A stretch of DNA of 64,000 bases, from NCBI RefSeq assembly GCF_015732155.1, contig NZ_WIQK01000001.1, positions 186,001 to 250,000 on the forward strand, in the 5' to 3' direction. Numbering within the stretch: position 1 is the stretch's first letter; the number at the start of each line of letters is the position of its first letter. Positions 22,566 to 49,808 of the stretch are shown piece by piece. The position numbers and the translations under genes were made by a program. This stretch comes from Pectinatus sottacetonis. Its GTDB lineage: Bacteria; Bacillota; Negativicutes; Selenomonadales; Selenomonadaceae. The notes below the pieces were generated by a model. That model searched no databases and had not been told where the DNA came from. It saw nothing but the letters and a program-made list of their open reading frames with translations.

Positions 22566-23153
22566 TTATTGTACTATTTCCGGTAAAAACATAAAGGTTT
22601 CTGGATTGATAATGTGATTAAAACACAAGGACGGCATGCCACCATGCTGCACCACTTCCTGCTGCATATTTTCAATGGCTATCGTAGCAGCATCCGATAA
22701 AGTCTGTCCCCGGCAGATATTATCGTAAAAGCGGGGCATAAACAAGCGTGATGCCACAGGATTGTAGCCCTTCTCCATGCCAATTACCGCATAAAGACGA
22801 CCCATGTTCCCCAGATCACTGTCATCGAGCTTACTATTCAATGTAACCAGAGTGAGCGGCACAGCAGCTTCACGCAGTTTTTTCAGCAGAGAAATCCGGC
22901 TGCACTGGCCAGTTATCTCTTCTCCACGGGAAAAAATAAGCTGGTGTTTATCACTGCGCCCAATAAGATGTATCCAATCCGGCATTATTGTTTCAGCAGC
23001 AGCAATGGCTTCTGCCGGCTGTTCGCACACGACAGTATGTGCCACCACTCTGCCGGCTCCTGCCTGCCCGACTACCTGCGCAACTTTGTCAGCCTCATGC
23101 AGCTCATCAAGAGCATCCATTTTTATTATCAGCAGTTTTCGCTGTCCATCCAT
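22566..23153 (-). CDS. CHAT-like protein lacking catalytic residues (tentative)
   Basis: 195 residues, no signal peptide. The order of segments recalls the CHAT caspase-like fold: WIHLIGRSDKHQLIFSRGEE where ILHFAGHG... is usual, VPLTLVTLNSK where LVVLSAC... is usual, then FMPRFYDNICRGQTLSDAAT like FY..L..G.s..eA. The second His is Arg and the Cys is Asn/Ser, so it would be an inactive relative. It is the last gene of the cobalamin-riboswitch group, 37 bases after the chimeric receptor. Its role is unknown; the fold call is my reading only. Confidence 0.4.
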   Translation of the reverse strand: MDGQRKLLIIKMDALDELHEADKVAQVVGQAGAGRVVAHTVVCEQPAEAIAAAETIMPDWIHLIGRSDKHQLIFSRGEEITGQCSRISLLKKLREAAVPLTLVTLNSKLDDSDLGNMGRLYAVIGMEKGYNPVASRLFMPRFYDNICRGQTLSDAATIAIENMQQEVVQHGGMPSLCFNHIINPETFMFLPEIVQ

Positions 23154-23190: not shown

Positions 23191-26100
23191 TTAGAATGAA
23201 TATTCCAGTGTCATATAATATGTCCGGCCTTGCTGCGGATAAGGCACAGTACTATCAGCTTCTGGTGTTGTTCCAGGTCCAGCTTTCCACCAGTTATAAC
23301 GCTGTCTTTGTTCAGGACCCCTATTGCCTACATCATTAATGCCCGTAATTAATTTTAGCTGTTTATTAACCTTGTACTTTATGCCAACATTCAGCAATCC
23401 TAATGGTGTATAATAAGTAGCTTCTCCAGCATTATTAAACCATGACAGTTTATCTACCCAGTAATATTCGCCGAAGATGCTGAGCTTATCACCCGGGAAG
23501 CGGTAATCAAGCCGAGCATTGACTGTCCAGGCTGGTGTCCATGATAGCGGCTGTCCCTGCCATGTCGTATAACTCATATTGGCTCTCGGCGTATAACCCT
23601 GCTTTACCAATGAGTTCTGCCATGTGGCCGCCAATAATAAATCATAGCGGTGCCAGTGCAGCTTATTGTTGAATTCCACACCATGCACTTCACCGGCTCC
23701 GTAGTTGGCGTACCAGGTATCACCCCATATAGGATTGAACATCAACGTCATAGTATTTTCCGAATTGCGGTGGAAATAGGTCAGTGTCGTATCATCATCT
23801 GCTCCCAGCAGCCTGCCTTTCCAGTTGAGTGATACATCCCAATTCTGCCCATGTTCGGCAAATACCTCTGGACCCCATGCTGCAATAGAATTGAATTCAA
23901 ACCATCTGGATACCTGATAAAGCCCATCGCCAAACACTTCATACCAGTTAGGCATACGGTAATAAGTCCCATAAGTTGCCCAAGCTGTAAAATGCTTATC
24001 AAACTGTTTCTTCAGGGCAAGATTATAGCTGTTGAGCCAGCCCTTGCCTTCACGTACCGGGATACCGATACTAGCACGCTGCGACCGCACCAATGGCGTA
24101 AAGGTCAGGCTGCCGGAATCATCCAGCTTCATCGTATCCTGCAGCTGGAGATAATAATTACTCATATTATATTTAGGTAAAAACCAATCTTTGTATAGAT
24201 CTTTGGCATAACCAGAAGAAAACTCATTATCAGTATCAAATTTTACATTCATGGTTTCCCTGCTGCCGCTCAGCAGGAATTCCAGCAGATGATTGCCCAT
24301 CTTCCATGTACCATCGACAGAAGCATTGTAAATATCATTTTTAAATGTATTGGTGCCAAACATAAGCCCATTAGGCACCCCACGGCAATACAGTGATTTT
24401 TTGTTCTGGTGGATCATTCCCAGTTTCCAGCCCCATTCCAGATTACCGGCCTGCTGGCGGCGCCCAAACGATAGTTCTGTTTTTCTTGTATCTATAACAC
24501 CATCCAGGAACGCTTTTGTTGAACTCCAAATGATGCCATACTGCCGCTTCTCTTCCGGCGAATCTACCAGAGGCCAACGAGGATTTATTGACTCTGGTTT
24601 ATGAGTAGAATTATCAGTATATGCCACTTTTACAAACCAATTCTTATCCTGCCATTTTGCCAGCATGTTCTTATCACTATAGCCATTATTCTGGCGCCAG
24701 CGTTTACTAGGTATACCAGTTGGCCGATCAAAACCATAAGTATTAGGAAACAGATTATACTTAAAATCACCTTCGGCTTGTTCTTTGTTAAGTGCCAGCA
24801 GCAGGCTGCCATCACCAACAGGCGCAGTGGTTTCCAGATTGAACTTCTGGCCGCCGAAGGAACGGAGTCCATAGCTTATCTTCCCGCCGGTCTTAGTGGG
24901 TTTCTTCGTTACGATATTGATGGCTCCGCCCATCGCTGCCCCGGCAAAACGCGCCGGTATATAGCCGCGGTAGACCTCAATGCGTTCAACATTATCAATA
25001 TTGATATTTTCCAAATTAACTGCTGACTCGCTGCCAGTATTGACTAATACACCATCTATATATATACTCACCTCGCTGGCAGAGGAGCCGCGCACCCGCA
25101 CCGTGCTATAATGGCCGGTACCGCCGCCTGACATGCGGTCAATATATACTCCCGGTACAGTCTGTAGTAAGTCGGCCAGTGTTTTTTGTTCGCCTTTATA
25201 TTTAGGCACATCTATAACGGATACTGTTCCCGGTGACAGCTTCTTTTCCCAGTCAGGACGGCCTGATTCGACTACGGTCGGCGTCAAGGCAAATTCAGAC
25301 GCATTTTTTCCTGCCGAAACGGTTTCATCGACCGGTCTATTATTTGTTACTGCCTGTCCTGCTGTTTTTGCTGTCACTGCTGCCGGAGCTGTTCCTTTGA
25401 CCGGCTGTACTACATCTGCGGCCGCGGCTGGTGGACTGATTTTAGAAACCGAGCCAGCCGTTTGTTTACTGCCTGCAGTATTAACTTTGCTATTGGCTGT
25501 TGTTCCTGCAATGGTATTTTCTGCCGTAGCATCTTTTCTGCTGCCGGTCTGCGCAGGTTTTACAGACTCAGCTGTGGCACCAGTAGTTTTCACCGGTGCC
25601 GTAAAAGCAGCTGGTACAGTTCCCTGTTTTTTCCGGCTGGGCGGGCCGCCCCAATGCCATGTTATACCACCATTTACCTGCCAGTCAGTATTGACTTTAC
25701 CACCAAATGATTTAGTAACGCCGACCCAGCCGTCATGGCTATTGCCCATTTTAAAATTACTGCCCAGGGACACATCATACCAGGTGTCCCGGCCTTCAAG
25801 ATTATTGATTTTCTGCGAAGCAAGAACGGGATCTGCCCCAATTTCCAGTTTTATTGACTCAGGCTGCATGGCATAAAACATGGCATCATTGCTGTTAAAG
25901 TCATGGTTGGCTGCCAACTTAAGGTAGGCTTCACCACTGTGGCTGCCCTGTCCGTATTTTTTGCCCAGGGTTATCCCGGCATGCCCGGTCAGCATACCAG
26001 TCTTGTCCTGCATGTATTCAAGGTCATTGGCCGTACGGAAATTATAGGCCCGTGTGACGCCATAGGACAGCCCGATCTGCGGTTCCATGAACCAGCCGTT

Positions 26101-27561
26101 ATTTCTTGTTATATAGCGGCCATAGCGGGCACCGATGCCGTAGCTCTTGCTGATAAAGTCCTTGGTATAGGTATTATCATAGGAATCGGTATAGGCGTAG
26201 TTGTTGTCGACCTTGCTCCAGCGCAGCATGGTATCAAGGTAATGTCCCTTCTGCCCTTCCCAGAGCATATAAGCACCAAAACCGAGGCTGCTTACATTGC
26301 CGGAGCCGCTGTTATAGTCGGCACCGCCGGCATTCTGGGCACTGAAATCAGCCCCGGAATTAAGCTTGCTGACAAATACCCCTGTATGTACCCTGCCATT
26401 AAACAGCTTACGGCGGCGCAGCTTATCATAGCCGACCTGAAGGCCGCTGTAACTCTGGTTAAAGCTAGAACCCTGAATACCGCCAAAATTATATTTGCCA
26501 TGCCAGTTATTGACATAAAAACCTTCCGGTGACTTACTGCCGGTACGGTCGGCAAAGCGGATATCGTCACCGTGCTTCCATAGTACATCATCTTCGATAC
26601 GCCACATATTGCGGCTGGCCAGTGCCGCATTGGCCGCCGAGTAAGCCCCCTGGGAAAGATAATTCTGCCGCCGGGCTGTCCAGACCAGGCTCCACACTCT
26701 ATGTGTAGTATAATCTACTTGCGGATTAGTTTCATCTTGCTGCACCTGCGTCTGCAGCAGATATTTATTGATGGCACCGTCAAGATGGTACTCGCCGCTG
26801 CCCGACACATTAAATTTATCCATTGTGGCAGTATCTGAATTGCCTATAGAAAAGATACCAGGTATTCTGTTCTTCAGCATGGCTGCTGTCTGGTGATCCC
26901 ATGGATAGTAACAATTAGATCCAACCATTCCTTCACCAAAATGATTGCCGATGATATAATGCAGTGTAACATTTACGGTTGGATATTCAGCTGAATTAAT
27001 TATCTGCGGCGCATCCAAATCTATAAGATCATTACCACCCATCCTATGATACATATCAAAAACAGCTGTTCCCATATTAAGCCGAAAAGCAATATTGCCT
27101 TCAAATTTACCATTATCTAATGACAAATCTCGCTCTGTATTAAAAGAGGAAGAGGTTGCTGCCGACCAGGGATCATAGCCGTTTTCCTGAGTATAACCGT
27201 TGGCAGCACTGTATTTATATGCCAGGTCTATCATGGAACCGGAATGCATGGTTAAAGCACTCGCATAAATTGCAGACTTAGCATCCAGCGGACGCCATAT
27301 TCCCCCATTTAAAATATTAATAGGTTCGTTATATCTGGAAACCGGTGGTCCGCCGGTCTGTGTATTTCTGGCATAGGTAGTATAATTACCTCCACTCGTG
27401 ATATCATAAGTTCCGCTTGGGTCGGCATTTATTCCCCAATTTATGTAATTGGCATTTTCTCCATTTATTACCAGCTGATTCCATGCCTCACATGGTGCGG
27501 TATAAGTAAGCAAAAAAAGAGCCAGGGGATATAATACTATATATTTATTATTCCTTTTCAA
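23191..27561 (-). CDS. Autotransporter / TonB-dependent receptor chimera
   Basis: One uninterrupted 1456-residue frame. Signal peptide 1-26 (cut near CEAWNQ). Passenger about 27-340, beta-rich. Autotransporter beta-barrel about 345-638 (YSGLQVGYDKL ... LGFGAYMLWEGQKGHYLDTM ... WFMEPQIGLSYGV ... NGGITWHWG). Ala/Thr/Ser-rich linker 639-755. TonB box-like PTVVES at about 761. Receptor plug 770-890 (LADLLQTVPGVYI, VRVRGSSASEVSIYIDG, VERIEVYRGYIPARFAGAAM, GGAINIVT). 22-strand-type barrel to the terminal Phe of LEYSF. Each half alone would be a complete outer-membrane protein. Lying behind two cobalamin riboswitches, the receptor half is probably BtuB-like. I know no described protein with this order. 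Confidence 0.85.
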   Translation of the reverse strand: MKRNNKYIVLYPLALFLLTYTAPCEAWNQLVINGENANYINWGINADPSGTYDITSGGNYTTYARNTQTGGPPVSRYNEPINILNGGIWRPLDAKSAIYASALTMHSGSMIDLAYKYSAANGYTQENGYDPWSAATSSSFNTERDLSLDNGKFEGNIAFRLNMGTAVFDMYHRMGGNDLIDLDAPQIINSAEYPTVNVTLHYIIGNHFGEGMVGSNCYYPWDHQTAAMLKNRIPGIFSIGNSDTATMDKFNVSGSGEYHLDGAINKYLLQTQVQQDETNPQVDYTTHRVWSLVWTARRQNYLSQGAYSAANAALASRNMWRIEDDVLWKHGDDIRFADRTGSKSPEGFYVNNWHGKYNFGGIQGSSFNQSYSGLQVGYDKLRRRKLFNGRVHTGVFVSKLNSGADFSAQNAGGADYNSGSGNVSSLGFGAYMLWEGQKGHYLDTMLRWSKVDNNYAYTDSYDNTYTKDFISKSYGIGARYGRYITRNNGWFMEPQIGLSYGVTRAYNFRTANDLEYMQDKTGMLTGHAGITLGKKYGQGSHSGEAYLKLAANHDFNSNDAMFYAMQPESIKLEIGADPVLASQKINNLEGRDTWYDVSLGSNFKMGNSHDGWVGVTKSFGGKVNTDWQVNGGITWHWGGPPSRKKQGTVPAAFTAPVKTTGATAESVKPAQTGSRKDATAENTIAGTTANSKVNTAGSKQTAGSVSKISPPAAAADVVQPVKGTAPAAVTAKTAGQAVTNNRPVDETVSAGKNASEFALTPTVVESGRPDWEKKLSPGTVSVIDVPKYKGEQKTLADLLQTVPGVYIDRMSGGGTGHYSTVRVRGSSASEVSIYIDGVLVNTGSESAVNLENINIDNVERIEVYRGYIPARFAGAAMGGAINIVTKKPTKTGGKISYGLRSFGGQKFNLETTAPVGDGSLLLALNKEQAEGDFKYNLFPNTYGFDRPTGIPSKRWRQNNGYSDKNMLAKWQDKNWFVKVAYTDNSTHKPESINPRWPLVDSPEEKRQYGIIWSSTKAFLDGVIDTRKTELSFGRRQQAGNLEWGWKLGMIHQNKKSLYCRGVPNGLMFGTNTFKNDIYNASVDGTWKMGNHLLEFLLSGSRETMNVKFDTDNEFSSGYAKDLYKDWFLPKYNMSNYYLQLQDTMKLDDSGSLTFTPLVRSQRASIGIPVREGKGWLNSYNLALKKQFDKHFTAWATYGTYYRMPNWYEVFGDGLYQVSRWFEFNSIAAWGPEVFAEHGQNWDVSLNWKGRLLGADDDTTLTYFHRNSENTMTLMFNPIWGDTWYANYGAGEVHGVEFNNKLHWHRYDLLLAATWQNSLVKQGYTPRANMSYTTWQGQPLSWTPAWTVNARLDYRFPGDKLSIFGEYYWVDKLSWFNNAGEATYYTPLGLLNVGIKYKVNKQLKLITGINDVGNRGPEQRQRYNWWKAGPGTTPEADSTVPYPQQGRTYYMTLEYSF

Positions 27562-27640: not shown

Positions 27641-29038
27641 TTATTTGCCGGCATAGGAACTTATAAAATCATCATATTCATCCTGGCTCATCCCGGCACG
27701 GGATACCAATACCGGATGGACAAAACCACGGACAGACTTAATAGCACGACTGCCGCGGCGGGTAACGGCCGGCATCGCCAAGGAGATTGCATTAAAGGCC
27801 GGAGTACCATCTGTCCAGCCAGAGGCCGTAGCGGCATCGATAGCGCTGCCGGAAATACCGCTGGCATCATAGACACCCAGTGTATCACCCAGCATGCCCC
27901 AGACCTTGCCCAATTCGTCGGCCGGCAATAATGCCCACAGATAACCGTTGACAGTTGATATGCTGACATTACTAATCAATGTAGCTGTATTGTACAATAA
28001 ATCATCACCCGTCAAATCGGCTATATTGGCATGCCATAAATGACCGGTGAAAGCAAAATTGCTGTCGTAAGAACCATTTATGATATAAGCCGTACCATCC
28101 TCAAGAATGGCCAGTGAACGGATATCAAATTTATCATTATCGTATTTTGAATCAGTTTCTGTTGAATTGGCCGGCCGAACGAGATCAGTCACGGTAAGGC
28201 CGGTGGTGACCTTTTGAATACGTGAAGTATAGTTCCATTTCCACGAAGTCTGGTTCCACTGCGCACCGCCCAGAGCCGTCACATAGAAGCTGCCGCCATA
28301 GTACTGCAAATCAAAGACATTCGGTGCCAGGCTGGCACTCGGACCGCCGCCGCTGACCGGTGTCAGCGTGCCGGGATCGAGCTTGACAATGATACTGTTA
28401 TAGTAAGTATAGTTCGCCGGATTAGATGGCGAACCGGACAGACTATACTGCTGGGCTGCGGCATAAACGTAGTCAGTGCCTGATTCAGTATTAAATACCG
28501 AGTCGACACTATGGGCTTTTGCTCCTGATGTTGTCGGTACAAACTGATAATCATGGCTGTCCAATGTCAGGGTTTCGGCTCCGCCGCTGACATCGTGAAT
28601 AAGCTTGAATATACGTCCGTTATCATTGTTCACTCCGGTATAGTCAGCACCGTAAAGTGTGCCGGCATCAGTCCCGCCCGGTGAATTGATGCTGTAGATA
28701 TTGAGCAGCGGAGTACCATCATTGTATTCATAAGCCGACGAATTTTCCGCGACTGTTTTTGTCCAACTGCTGGGATCATACACGGAAAGCGTACAAAAAG
28801 TCTGTTGATAGCTTGAATCATAATTTCTTTCTACCAGCAGCACCCTGATACCGGTGCCGCTGCCGCCGTTAAAGTAAAAGGCGATAGGATCGGTATTAGT
28901 GAACTCAGTCCCGCTCCCTGATACAGGAGTATACGCCGGTGTGCTGGTGCTGCTGGAAGTAATCAGGCGCAGACGCCCCTTGTTTGACAGTGATGTAGCA
29001 AAATTATAAAATGTTGCCACTACAGTTGAAGTAGACAT
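27641..29038 (-). CDS. Propeller-like protein without signal peptide, cobalamin-riboswitch group
   Basis: 465 residues, rich in Ser, Thr, Gly and Tyr, with spaced beta-strand pairs such as GTLYGADYTGVNNDNGRIFK, DYVYAAAQQYSL, FDLQYYGGSFYVTALGG, IRSLAILEDGTAYIINGSYD and GYLWALLPADELGKVWGM. This looks like a beta-propeller. The start (AGAAGGG site, MSTSTVVATFYNFATSLSNK) shows no Sec signal or lipobox, although composition and neighbours suggest a surface role. In Bacteroides, BtuG is a propeller that captures B12 for BtuB; an analogous role here is inference. No family recognised. Confidence 0.6.
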   Translation of the reverse strand: MSTSTVVATFYNFATSLSNKGRLRLITSSSTSTPAYTPVSGSGTEFTNTDPIAFYFNGGSGTGIRVLLVERNYDSSYQQTFCTLSVYDPSSWTKTVAENSSAYEYNDGTPLLNIYSINSPGGTDAGTLYGADYTGVNNDNGRIFKLIHDVSGGAETLTLDSHDYQFVPTTSGAKAHSVDSVFNTESGTDYVYAAAQQYSLSGSPSNPANYTYYNSIIVKLDPGTLTPVSGGGPSASLAPNVFDLQYYGGSFYVTALGGAQWNQTSWKWNYTSRIQKVTTGLTVTDLVRPANSTETDSKYDNDKFDIRSLAILEDGTAYIINGSYDSNFAFTGHLWHANIADLTGDDLLYNTATLISNVSISTVNGYLWALLPADELGKVWGMLGDTLGVYDASGISGSAIDAATASGWTDGTPAFNAISLAMPAVTRRGSRAIKSVRGFVHPVLVSRAGMSQDEYDDFISSYAGK

Positions 29039-29880: not shown

Positions 29881-29950
29881 ATTGCGCTCACAGAAAAAAC
29901 TGTTCCACGTAATCTCCTCCCCATGCCTCGCAGGTCAAGCGGTGATCGTT

Positions 29951-30107
29951 AAACAGGCAGTTCTCCTGACTTCGGTTCATAGCTTACCGCGCCTTCCCAA
30001 AGCAGCTGCTTCAGTGACGTATTTTGCGGATTGCTCCCCGTTACAGTGGCGGGACCGTGCCGGCTTTTCACCGGACTTCCCTATTAAGCCCCGAAGGGCA
30101 CCTGTTT
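29951..30107 (-). promoter_or_regulatory. Cobalamin riboswitch, proximal copy
   Basis: Minus strand, closed by AAACAGG/CCTGTTT. It has the B12-box landmarks: GGTGAAAAGCCGGCACGG, CCCGCCACTGTAACGGGGAG, GTCACTG, and AAGTCAGGAGAACTGCCTG. It lies about 210 bases upstream of the OmpH start with an intrinsic terminator between, so it should switch transcription off when cobalamin is plentiful. Confidence 0.93.
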
Positions 30108-30235
30108 CTCTATATTAAGTTTTGTCTGTACTGAAAAAACAGAGTGTACAACTCTCATTTAACCAATGCTGCGCAGCCTGCTATCACACTACGATAAAAA
30201 CAGCCAAAAAAATATATAGCTTTGATACTCAGCTG

Positions 30236-30279
30236 CAAAAAAAGCGCCAACCATCCCGCCCGGCGGAACAATTGACGCT
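30236..30279 (-). terminator. Terminator of the distal cobalamin riboswitch
   Basis: Minus strand AGCGTCAATTGTTCCGCC / GGCGGGATGGTTGGCGCT (with G-U pairs) followed by TTTTTTT. It lies between the two aptamers and gives the distal riboswitch its own off-switch. Confidence 0.82.
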
Positions 30280-30438
30280 CTATTCTCTAAAGCGGCCTGC
30301 TTACCGGGTCATCAAATACACACTTCCAGTCAAAATATGCGACCTGAATAATCACAACCAATACAGTATAAACCATCTGCGGCCTGTGAGTGTGTGTCTT
30401 CAATCCCCGACCTGTACATCGCAGGCGATACGGATAAA

Positions 30439-30592
30439 TAAAGCAGGCAGTACCCTGACTAAGGCTCATTATCATATTTCTCCCTGGTAAGAGGAAAACA
30501 GAAACATGATTCACCTTCACAGTTGCGAGACAGCGCCGGACTTGCACCGGACTTCCCTTTTAAATCCGCCCCAAAGACGGATACCTGATTTT
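30439..30592 (-). promoter_or_regulatory. Cobalamin riboswitch, distal copy
   Basis: Minus strand, closed by AAATCAGG/CCTGCTTT. Landmarks: GGGAAGTCCGGTGCAAGTCC, GGCGCTGTCTCGCAACTGTG, a peripheral stem, and GCCTTAGTCAGGGTACTGCC. The B12-box reads GCAACTG instead of the GCCACTG of the proximal copy, so the two aptamers are different subtypes rather than a fresh duplication. Confidence 0.9.
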
Positions 30593-31048
30593 ATAAAAAA
30601 TTCTATTATTTTATTATAATGGCAAAATAACGATTAATGATTTTCTAATAAAAGCTATACATATTTATTTATTGACTGATGGTCATTAAATAGCTTTACT
30701 TATAAAGTACCACCCGTATTTATCTTTGTCAACTCATATTTTCATGTATACAGTATATAAACCCTGACAATGCCTTACTGCTATAACTTTATGCCACAGA
30801 ATTTTTTTTATAATACTGGATGCACTTCTAAGATAAATAAATTTTTTAGCATGTTTTATGAAATATTAAATAAGTGTATATGGTTTAGCAATGCAGTATA
30901 ACAATCTCATTCAAATTCATATAAAAACAACCCTTTGCCCGCCCTTAAAAGAGCGGACAAAAGCATTTATATTAGACAGGCTTTTATAATCTAAACTATA
31001 TACGGACAGTTCAAAATGGAAACAAAACTTTCTTACTACACTAAAGAA
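30593..31048. other. Intergenic region upstream of the riboswitches
   Basis: 456 A+T-rich bases between the riboswitch leader and the 3' end of brnQ. A minus-strand TATAAT (plus 30613-30618) could be the -10 of the riboswitch transcript; no convincing -35. No gene seen. Confidence 0.4.
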
Positions 31049-38147: not shown

Positions 38148-38192
38148 AAAAACACCGTCTTCCTATTATTTATAGGGAAAACGGTGTTTTTT
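38148..38192 (-). terminator. Terminator of the TPP riboswitch
   Basis: AAAACACCGT / ACGGTGTTTT stem with a T-run on the minus strand, just before the thiT ribosome site. Confidence 0.82.
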
Positions 38193-38194
38193 AT

Positions 38195-38277
38195 CGTTTC
38201 CCTTCGCTGGCATTATCCAGATCAGGTCAAAGGGTTATGAAAATCCATTTCATTCTCAGCCATAACGGCACCCCTAA
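38195..38277 (-). promoter_or_regulatory. TPP riboswitch (THI element)
   Basis: Minus strand AGGGGTGCCGTTATGGCTGA GA...ACCCTTTGACCTGATCTGGA TAATGCCAGCGAAGGGAA: all conserved THI-box segments. Controls thiT through the following terminator. Confidence 0.96.
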
Positions 38278-38426
38278 TATTAACAATTTTATTTTAGATA
38301 AATACATCCATGCTGTCAAGTACATATAATCATTAGCTGGCATAATTTCTTTTATAGCTGACAGATTTTTGCAATTTATTGTTTTGCTGCTGAATATATT
38401 ACTATCCTGGTATTATTCTTCGTTTT

Positions 38427-46139: not shown

Positions 46140-49100
46140 ATGTTTCAAAATACTAATACACTGGACTGCATCCAATCTTTACAGGGAAAACTTTCTGCTG
46201 TTTATGAATATTTTACTGAACATAATGATAACGAAAACAGAAAAAAAATAATTCAGTTAGCTGATAAATTATCTACTAATGAATTTACTATTGCTTTTTG
46301 CGGCCATTTTTCCGCTGGAAAGTCAAAAATGATAAACTGTCTTGTTGACGGTGAACTTTTACCTTCCAGTCCTATTCCTACAAGTGCTAATCTGGTAAAG
46401 GTAAAATCAGGAAAAGATTCTGCCAAAGTATTTTTTAAAGAAGGCAGAGCACGCTTATATCTGGCTCCTTACGACTATGACTTAATAAAAAAGCACTGCA
46501 CAGATAGTAAAAAAATAGATTATATAGAAATAAACCATAATAATTTGAAACTGCCTGGTGATGTCGTTATAATGGATACTCCCGGTGTAGATTCCACTGA
46601 TGATGCCCATAGACTTGCCACTCGGTCAGCACTTCATCTTGCAGATATAATATTTTATGTGATGGATTACAATCATGTGCAATCTGAGTTGAATTTTAAA
46701 TTTACCAAAGAACTGATTGAATCAGGCAAGGAAGTTTACCTTATAGTTAACCAGATAGATAAACATTCTGAGCAGGAAATATCTTTTAATAAGTTTCAAC
46801 AGGAAACAGCGGCATCTTTTGCTTCCTGGGGCGTTAAACCTGCCGGAATATTTTATACTTCTATGAAAATACCAGAACATAAATATAACCAATTTTCTCA
46901 ATTAAAAATATTTCTTAATACACGCTTAAAAGACAAAAGCAGGCTTTTGCTTCAATCAGTAGAAAAATCTTTGGAAAAAATAATACAGGATCATCTGACA
47001 TCATTTATCGGACAAATTAATTCCAAATTCAAGCCCTTTACTGATAAACTAAATGATTTATCAGCTGAACAGCAGGAATCATTAATAAGTAAATATAAGG
47101 AACTGCTGCAGCAAAAAAACAACTTAACTAAGCGGGAAAAAACTTTAAAAAATGATTTTGACAATAGTATAACTAAAATTCTGGATAATGCTTATTTAAT
47201 GCCCTTTGAAATAAGAGAATTAGCTAAGGCTTATTTAAAATCACGTGAACCAGGATTCAAGGTAGGTCTGTTTTTTACCAAGAAAAAAACGCTGGCAGAA
47301 CAGGAGCAGCGTTTGAATATTTTTTACCAGGCTGCCAAAAAAAAAGCAAATGAACAAATAGAATGGCATGTACGCAGCTATTTATTTACTTATCTAAAAA
47401 ATAACAAAATAGTTAACAAAAATTTAACTAAACAAATTGAGGCACTTACTCTAGATTTTTCTATTGATATTCCTATGACTGCAGTACAAACAGGTGCGCG
47501 TGTTTCAGATGATTATGTTTCAACTTATACAGATAACGTAGCTGCAGCAATAAAACAGACTGCAAAAAAACTTATAGTTCCGTTAAAAACAGCTATTTTA
47601 ACTGCTACTGATAAAATAATCCTTACTGCACAGGAAAAAACACAGGAAAAAGTAGCAGGACTGAAACAATACCTTTCTTCACTGGAATATATCCAACAGC
47701 GAGATTCTATTATTTCCAATTATAAAAAAGAAACTGCTGCACTTCTTACTTCATCATATAGCTTTACTAATGATAAATTTCATTTGTTCGATAAAAAAGA
47801 ATGTGATTTTGAAATAATCAGGTCATCTGTTAAGAAATCTCCTGAAAAAATACTAGCAGATATTAAAAACCAGCCTGTACCTATACCAATAATGTCAAAT
47901 ACTTTTACTTCAGTTTCACAAAAAAAGATTAATAAAATTGATTTGACTGCCAAAAAATTGAAGAAAATAGCTGAACTTATTCACCATCTGCCCGGTTTTA
48001 CCAAAACAGCTGCTCTGCTGCGGAAAAAATCTGAACGATTGCAAAACAAGGGTTTTACCGTTGCTTTATTTGGTGCTTTCAGTGCTGGAAAATCTTCTTT
48101 TGCCAACGCACTACTCGGAGCTGGCGTTTTACCAGTGTCACCTAATCCGATGACAGCAGCTATAAATAATATAAAACCCATTGACAGGAACCACCCCCAT
48201 AAAAGTGTCATTATCAAGATAAAATCAGAAGAACTCTTGTTAAAGGATATAAATAATGCTTTAAGTTCATTCAATCTGCTGGCAGATTCTCTTCCTGATG
48301 CTATAACTAAAATCAAGACAATTGACAATACTATCCTGCAAGGTAATGTTAAAGCTAAGACAAACTATTCATTTCTTCAGGCTTTCAGCTGCGGATATGA
48401 TATATTTTCCCATAAGCTTAACTCAGCATTAACAGCATCTGCTGACGATTTTCAGGATTATGCAGCACAGGAAGAAAAGGCTTGTTTTGTCGAATACATA
48501 GATATCTATTTTGACTGTCCTTTGACACGCCAGGGTATCACACTTGTAGATACTCCTGGAGCTGATTCTATAAATGCCCGTCATACAGGAGTGGCTTTTC
48601 AGTATATTAAGAATTCCGATGCCGTTTTATTCATTACATATTACAATCATGCTTTTTCTAAAGCTGACAGAGAATTTTTACTTCAGCTCGGTCGTGTTAA
48701 AGAAACATTTCAATTAGATAAAATGTTTTTTATAATAAATGCTATCGACTTAGCGGAAAACGAAACAGAAGAATCAATTGTCATTGACTATGTTCGCCGA
48801 CAGTTATTATCGCACGGTATAAAAAATCCTTGTATATCTCCTGTTTCAAGTATAAATGCCCTCAGAGAAAAGAAAACAGGAACAAACAATAATTGCTCAG
48901 GGATGGCTGTATTTGAAACTGCTTTTTATTATTTTATTACACATGATCTTGCTGATATGGCTGTTTCTTCATCGGAAAAGGAACTTGTCCGTATTAATAG
49001 ACTACTGGAAAAACTCATTGTCAATACACAGAAAGATACAGCTGAAAAAACGGCAAAAAAATTATTAATGGAAAAAGAAAAAAATACACTGCTGGCAACA

Positions 49101-49808
49101 ATTCATACCCAGACTGCAGAGAACATAAAGAACCGTTTGTCCCAGGAAATGGAAGAATTACTATATTATGTGAATCAGCGGGTATTTCTACGCTTCAATA
49201 ATTTTTTCCGGGAATCATTCAATCCCTCAGTCCTGCGTGATGACGGTCGTGATTTAAAACAAGCTGTGAAGGCTGCTTTAGTTGAATTATTGGAATCTCT
49301 TGGTTTTGATTTTGCCCAGGAAATGCGTGCTACAACAATTCGCCTTGATAATTTCATAAAAAAAATATTTACTGATCGACAGACAGAACTTGCTGCTGAA
49401 ATAAACAAGGTCAATCCTGAAATATCATTTACTGCTTTTTCTCTAAAAAACAATAAACAGCTGGATTTTGAAACAGCTTTTACTTATATTCCATATAAAG
49501 CATTTTCCCAGTCAATGCTCTATTTCAAAAACCCAAAATCATTTTTTGAAAAAGGTGGCAGCCAGTTAATGAATAATGCACTGCATGGACAATTAAAATT
49601 ATATGCTGCCGAATATATTGGGCAGCAGCAAAATCGTCTGAATAAATTCTATGATGAACTCATTACTAATGAATTTACCAGATTTACTACTACGGCCACT
49701 GAACAGGTAGAAAACTTCTATCTCAGTCTGTTAACTGTCTTAACAGGTGAAATTTCTATAGATGAGTTAACAAAAATACACCATAAATTCACCGATCTGA
49801 ATATCTGA
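46140..49808 (+). CDS. Double dynamin-like GTPase (DynA type)
   Basis: 1222 residues with two complete dynamin GTPase units. First: P-loop GHFSAGKS (55-62), switch/G3 MDTPGVDS, G4 NQID. Second: P-loop GAFSAGKS (about 644-653), G3 VDTPGADS, G4 NAID. Each is followed by a helical stalk. This is the head-to-tail layout of Bacillus DynA (YpbR), a membrane-tethering and repair protein in the cytoplasm. No transmembrane segment; membrane contact would be through paddle helices. Encoded alone. Confidence 0.9.
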   Translation: MFQNTNTLDCIQSLQGKLSAVYEYFTEHNDNENRKKIIQLADKLSTNEFTIAFCGHFSAGKSKMINCLVDGELLPSSPIPTSANLVKVKSGKDSAKVFFKEGRARLYLAPYDYDLIKKHCTDSKKIDYIEINHNNLKLPGDVVIMDTPGVDSTDDAHRLATRSALHLADIIFYVMDYNHVQSELNFKFTKELIESGKEVYLIVNQIDKHSEQEISFNKFQQETAASFASWGVKPAGIFYTSMKIPEHKYNQFSQLKIFLNTRLKDKSRLLLQSVEKSLEKIIQDHLTSFIGQINSKFKPFTDKLNDLSAEQQESLISKYKELLQQKNNLTKREKTLKNDFDNSITKILDNAYLMPFEIRELAKAYLKSREPGFKVGLFFTKKKTLAEQEQRLNIFYQAAKKKANEQIEWHVRSYLFTYLKNNKIVNKNLTKQIEALTLDFSIDIPMTAVQTGARVSDDYVSTYTDNVAAAIKQTAKKLIVPLKTAILTATDKIILTAQEKTQEKVAGLKQYLSSLEYIQQRDSIISNYKKETAALLTSSYSFTNDKFHLFDKKECDFEIIRSSVKKSPEKILADIKNQPVPIPIMSNTFTSVSQKKINKIDLTAKKLKKIAELIHHLPGFTKTAALLRKKSERLQNKGFTVALFGAFSAGKSSFANALLGAGVLPVSPNPMTAAINNIKPIDRNHPHKSVIIKIKSEELLLKDINNALSSFNLLADSLPDAITKIKTIDNTILQGNVKAKTNYSFLQAFSCGYDIFSHKLNSALTASADDFQDYAAQEEKACFVEYIDIYFDCPLTRQGITLVDTPGADSINARHTGVAFQYIKNSDAVLFITYYNHAFSKADREFLLQLGRVKETFQLDKMFFIINAIDLAENETEESIVIDYVRRQLLSHGIKNPCISPVSSINALREKKTGTNNNCSGMAVFETAFYYFITHDLADMAVSSSEKELVRINRLLEKLIVNTQKDTAEKTAKKLLMEKEKNTLLATIHTQTAENIKNRLSQEMEELLYYVNQRVFLRFNNFFRESFNPSVLRDDGRDLKQAVKAALVELLESLGFDFAQEMRATTIRLDNFIKKIFTDRQTELAAEINKVNPEISFTAFSLKNNKQLDFETAFTYIPYKAFSQSMLYFKNPKSFFEKGGSQLMNNALHGQLKLYAAEYIGQQQNRLNKFYDELITNEFTRFTTTATEQVENFYLSLLTVLTGEISIDELTKIHHKFTDLNI

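Follow-up and report, generated by a model that had tools for sequence, protein, structure and literature searches.

An autotransporter–TonB-dependent receptor fusion conserved in cobalamin-riboswitch operons of Negativicutes, and its probable part in corrinoid uptake

The window analysed here, 64,000 nucleotides of Pectinatus sottacetonis (assembly GCF_015732155.1, contig NZ_WIQK01000001.1, positions 186,001 to 250,000), contains a minus-strand gene in which an autotransporter (AT) and a TonB-dependent receptor are fused in a single open reading frame (ORF). Two complete outer-membrane barrels are predicted in the one chain by Pfam matches and by AlphaFold2 (AF2). The gene lies downstream of cobalamin riboswitches and beside a gene for a predicted beta-propeller, and it probably belongs to a corrinoid uptake system resembling BtuB–BtuG, in which the autotransporter takes the place of the lipid-anchored surface part. 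Chains with two barrels and the BtuB–BtuG partnership are both already known; this combination alone appears to be undescribed.

Anatomy and conservation of the fusion

A first-pass annotation of the window, which did not state the strand, had read in this ORF a signal peptide, an autotransporter barrel at about residues 345–638, a linker at about 25.3–25.7 kb and a full receptor plug and barrel with an aromatic end, and all of these were borne out (Table 1). The start codon is TTG at position 27561, with an aaggaag ribosome-binding site ~7 nt 5' of it, and is credible because any in-frame ATG would lose the signal peptide. The latter was read by eye; an ESPR-like leader is common to five relatives (L067 and L072–L075) and gives a PF13018 match in L067. 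The autotransporter barrel is matched by PF03797 over residues 360–615 (E 7.6e-26; profile positions 14–254 of 255; 91.8 bits against a cut-off of 26) and by TIGR01414 of NCBIfam over residues 254–637 (92.7 against 16 bits). In the receptor half, PF07715 matches the plug at residues 774–880 (E 3.9e-20; 72.8 against 23.9 bits) and PF00593 the barrel at residues 1009–1409 (E 2.1e-18; 67.9 against 27 bits). Both the EspP and BrkA barrels and receptors of the BtuB/FepA type are matched in the PDB by a profile of the fusion family.

The AF2 model covers residues 257–1456, the passenger being left out, and was built from a 14-sequence alignment (mean predicted local distance difference test score, pLDDT, 70.8; predicted template modelling score, pTM, 0.58). 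It yields a pore helix, AT strands from 347 to 636, the linker, the plug and a second barrel running to the C-terminal F. The linker is disordered in the model, with pLDDT mostly <30. In relatives the linkers are ~91–152 residues long where measured, are rich in A, P, S, T, N, Q, E, D, K and G, and end in a TonB-box-like VVEA; a candidate TonB box of the VVES/VVEA type can be recognized by eye just before the plug, at the same position in relatives.

The first-pass annotation named a stop or frameshift in the linker as what would undo its reading. No such break is seen: 21 of the 380 Negativicutes genomes, from 11 family codes, contain the fusion at full length, some of them in two copies. Further fusions are cut by contig ends in G003, G099 and G315. 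Named carriers among the matches listed are Sporomusa acidovorans, Pelosinus propionicus and a Phascolarctobacterium metagenome-assembled genome (MAG). Pairwise ratios of non-synonymous to synonymous substitution (dN/dS) are 0.02–0.20 for the AT barrel, which aligns without gaps, 0.12–0.27 for the receptor, 0.28–0.52 for the linker and 0.36–0.43 for the passenger; these values indicate that both barrels are under purifying selection. In trees, all 25 AT barrels from fusions group together, apart from 13 barrels of unfused autotransporters (support 98/94). The fused receptors also form one clade (support 95) except for that of genome G298, which is placed among unfused receptors, in a quick tree with the Proteobacterial rows on long branches. 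Because the AT barrel of the G298 fusion (L167:7554-11945) sits in the fused clade, its receptor half appears to have been swapped, which suggests domain exchange in this fusion. A second fusion copy in Pelosinus propionicus (L063:1815-6199) is split into ORFs of 928 and 576 aa. A scan of viral contigs returned weak plug matches only.

The arrangement resembles the type Va autotransporters EspP and BrkA in its signal peptide, passenger, pore helix and PF03797 barrel, and in the ESPR of relatives. It differs from them in that the barrel is internal rather than at the C-terminal end, with 819 residues, including the second barrel, following it. The first-pass view that a two-barrel chain was without precedent did not hold, as outer-membrane proteins with several barrels have already been described as a class (Solan et al. 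2021, as cited in PMC11494523), with which, as far as it is set out there, the fusion shares the presence of two outer-membrane barrels in one chain. GfcD, whose barrels have 12 and 13 strands and for which a role in export is proposed (PMC11494523), is an example. No description of an autotransporter–TonB receptor fusion, in a B12 operon or elsewhere, was found in the literature searched, the survey data of Solan 2021 lying outside that search, and no paper was found linking a cobalamin riboswitch with an autotransporter or dealing with the fusion in Negativicutes. The fusion offers a naturally occurring and conserved substrate in which two unlike barrels share a chain and the end signal of the autotransporter is internal, and so makes it directly testable how the beta-barrel assembly machinery (BAM) deals with more than one barrel per chain.

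The corrinoid link and the partner propeller

A cobalamin riboswitch on the same strand lies upstream of the fusion in all 27 complete loci examined, the nearest being 132–2537 nt away, and this linkage is beyond chance because the whole 2.7 Mb Pectinatus genome holds just 13 such riboswitches. The best PDB fold match of the receptor half is BtuB:TonB (2gsk; E 5.6e-30, TM-score 0.81), and ranks 1–7 are all BtuB. From the riboswitches and the BtuB match, the ligand of the importer is most likely a corrinoid. Neighbours in some relatives are also related to B12, namely CbiZ (L058), methylmalonyl-CoA mutase (L075) and FecCD (L070).

A gene of the propeller family lies within 1 kb of the fusion in 23 of the 27 loci, following rather than preceding it in one group of relatives, and the family is present in 45 of the 380 genomes. 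The propeller of the window belongs to no Pfam family, and the family profile has a single match in the PDB, a designed propeller at E 0.03. In several genomes homologues directly follow the signal peptide as the N-terminal region of autotransporters of 2232–4716 aa (family against passengers: hhalign 99.7%, E 2.9e-26). The genes for these giant proteins lie immediately downstream of those for unfused BtuB-like receptors, and one such pair is present in this genome (L176:851-12540; C1:1935850-1947539), where a receptor is followed after a gap of ~12 nt by a 3093-aa propeller-passenger autotransporter; a cobalamin riboswitch lies upstream of the pair. The Synergistota homologues carry a signal peptide as well as an anchor at the C terminus, the tail in L082 being close to Synerg-CTERM, and the homologue of G298 (L167) has a signal peptide of its own. 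The propeller's relatives are thus surface proteins, either as passengers of autotransporters or with signal peptides and anchors. The propeller gene is split in L061 and L065, and plasmid searches with the propeller proteins found nothing.

In Bacteroides, BtuG is a lipid-anchored surface propeller that captures B12, and BtuB is a single barrel (PMC10404256, PMC6143338). The system described here is similar in having a TonB receptor that shows the BtuB fold and is controlled by a cobalamin riboswitch, and in encoding a propeller-like partner alongside it. It is unlike BtuB–BtuG in that an autotransporter is attached to the receptor, and the propeller either is unlipidated or forms the passenger of an autotransporter; by eye, neither a signal peptide nor a lipobox is present in the propeller of the window, so that it seems not to be a lipoprotein like BtuG.

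Proposed mechanism and its alternatives

We propose that the fusion gene is part of a vitamin B12 uptake operon under the control of cobalamin riboswitches and presumably repressed by cobalamin. The chain would be exported through Sec, after which BAM would insert the 12-stranded AT barrel, thereby bringing the passenger to the surface, and would also insert the BtuB-type TonB-dependent barrel. Provided that both barrels stay in one chain in the membrane, the disordered linker of ~126 residues would join them in the periplasm without tying up the TonB box. A Skp-like chaperone, the product of the first gene of the operon, probably aids this long, double-barrel client. The propeller would be the likely high-affinity corrinoid catcher, like BtuG, and the passenger, held by the linker beside the importer, most likely docks or positions it in place of BtuG's lipid anchor. 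The first-pass suggestion of a ligand-catching passenger tethered to the importer therefore survives in its link between surface display and import, but nothing shows that residues 27–300 catch a ligand, and the propeller is the better candidate for that task.

In the HasA/HasR hemophore system, too, an exported ligand-binding partner feeds a TonB receptor, although no barrel is fused there and the fold and ligand are different. If correct, the proposal points to a second solution for the surface capture of B12, in diderm Firmicutes, with autotransporters as anchors instead of the lipoproteins of Bacteroides. It may also bear on competition for B12, because the fusion is present in Phascolarctobacterium of the gut and in acetogens, Sporomusa among them.

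Several points weigh against a BtuB–BtuG-like system. The fusion scores far below the NCBI cut-off for B12 receptors (TIGR01779; 79.8 against 599.7 bits) and that of PRK10641 (67.1 against 836), and so does not classify as a BtuB in the strict sense. The model of the propeller, compared with the seven-bladed fold of BtuG, is of low quality (mean pLDDT 47.7, pTM 0.59); Foldseek matches propellers almost throughout, and in VIA the top entry is BtuG2 (8bn0, Z 17.1) with the other BtuG entries at Z 16.2–17.0 (8bai, 8bmz, 8bmy and 8okv at 16.7–17.0), values that are tied with those of unrelated propellers such as Sec12. This propeller and most of the co-encoded ones are without a visible signal peptide, so that a surface location is unproven, and four of the 27 fusion loci have no neighbouring propeller. 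A conserved C-terminal tail of the propellers beside fusions (e.g. GYxxPxxAS) might serve as an export signal.

Receptors of the same subfamily from a Deltaproteobacterial MAG (L081:5598-8753) and Sphingomonas sp. ERG5 (L086:9770-13357) have a C-terminal extension of ~300 residues resembling OMP_b-brl (PF13505), with scores of 32.4 bits, above the cut-off of 28.7, and 26.3 bits, just below it. A cobalamin riboswitch precedes each of them and a propeller gene follows. Judged from these sequences, such second-barrel fusions are possibly convergent with that of the Negativicutes. A more specific proposal, which we put forward tentatively and which could well prove wrong, is that the AT holds a BtuG-like propeller over the BtuB-type importer of the same chain, and that a second barrel has repeatedly been joined to this receptor subfamily for that purpose, as an AT before it in Negativicutes and as a small OmpA/OmpX-like barrel after it in Proteobacteria.

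The main competitor, though unlikely, is that the product is a polyprotein whose linker is cut after export to give an independent autotransporter and a BtuB-like receptor, fusion serving only equal dosage and joint export. The length and disorder of the linker, its fast evolution and its many in-frame indels would fit this reading, and several of the operons contain genes of protease families: papain-like (L058:14094-14996), subtilase (L074:2506-3480) and CHAT-like (L067:3973-4956). However, the linkers showed no conserved cleavage motif, the proteases are without an obvious signal peptide, and an operon could itself give equal dosage, the two-gene arrangement also existing.

It is improbable that the second barrel, that of the AT, is instead an exporter of the signal-less propeller, export and import pores being joined and the passenger secondary. 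Such a role would suit both the lack of signal peptides in most propellers beside fusions and the Proteobacterial relatives, in which this receptor subfamily is fused to another kind of barrel and a signal-less propeller again adjoins. Against it, the usual cargo of an autotransporter barrel is just the chain to which it belongs, propellers lacking a signal peptide are found beside single-barrel receptors as well (L174, L166), and the periplasmic side of the barrel would be out of reach for a protein that has no Sec signal. Hardly better placed is the view that B12 only regulates the operon and that the ligand is, for example, a siderophore or a metal: siderophore receptors are among the weaker NCBIfam matches of the fusion, but the constant presence of the riboswitch, the BtuB fold match and the BtuG-like partner speak for a corrinoid. 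Lastly, an assembly, frameshift or readthrough artefact joining two adjacent genes can be dismissed because, although an autotransporter and a BtuB-like receptor are adjacent elsewhere in this genome, they stand in the opposite order, and the fusion is open at full length in 21 genomes, including those of Sporomusa acidovorans and Pelosinus propionicus, with the fused AT barrels in one clade and a dN/dS of less than 1 for each barrel and for the linker.

Operon neighbours and other features

The common order of the operon is riboswitches, Skp/OmpH-like chaperone, propeller and fusion, followed by the 195-aa protein or, elsewhere, by a papain-like protease. The chaperone was found by sequence in 12 of the 27 fusion loci.

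Table 1. Coordinates of the fusion gene, its parts and its operon neighbours in the window
Feature	Position	Strand	Basis or remark
Protein of 195 aa after the fusion in five loci	22566..23153	minus	weak CHAT-like match in a relative
AT–TonB-dependent receptor fusion gene	23191..27561	minus	1456 aa; Pfam, NCBIfam, AF2
Signal peptide, residues 1–26 (MKRNNKYIVLYPLALFLLTYTAPCEA)	27484..27561	minus	read by eye; related leaders in relatives
Passenger, residues 27–300	26662..27483	minus	sequence; evolves faster than either barrel
Autotransporter pore helix, residues 302–339	26545..26658	minus	AF2
Autotransporter barrel, residues 347–636, aromatic end strand (DWQVNGGITWHW)	25654..26523	minus	Pfam, AF2, relatives
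Disordered A/T/S/P/N-rich linker, residues 639–764 (126 residues)	25270..25647	minus	AF2, relatives
TonB-box-like motif TPTVVES, about residues 760–766	25264..25284	minus	position kept in relatives
TonB receptor plug, residues 774–880	24922..25242	minus	PF07715
TonB receptor barrel, residues 904–1456	23194..24852	minus	PF00593, AF2, BtuB match
Partner protein, 465 aa, predicted beta-propeller, BtuG-like fold	27641..29038	minus	models, homology
OmpH/Skp-family periplasmic chaperone, 144 aa	29307..29741	minus	PF03938, E 2.2e-12
Cobalamin riboswitch, 111 bits	29939..30120	minus	RF00174
Second, tandem cobalamin riboswitch, 70 bits	30429..30603	minus	RF00174

Tandem cobalamin riboswitches, in two to four copies with differing scores, precede one operon both here (29939-30603) and in relatives. 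Genes beside the propeller that were suspected from ORF sizes to be type I secretion genes turned out to encode methylmalonyl-CoA mutase, MeaB, another TonB receptor and FecCD, among other products. In some relatives an ABC transporter of the SbmA/BacA type is found near the fusion. Elsewhere in the window there are a thiamine pyrophosphate (TPP) riboswitch on the minus strand (38182-38285) and a gene for a 1222-aa, DynA-like protein with dynamin GTPase domains (46140-49808).

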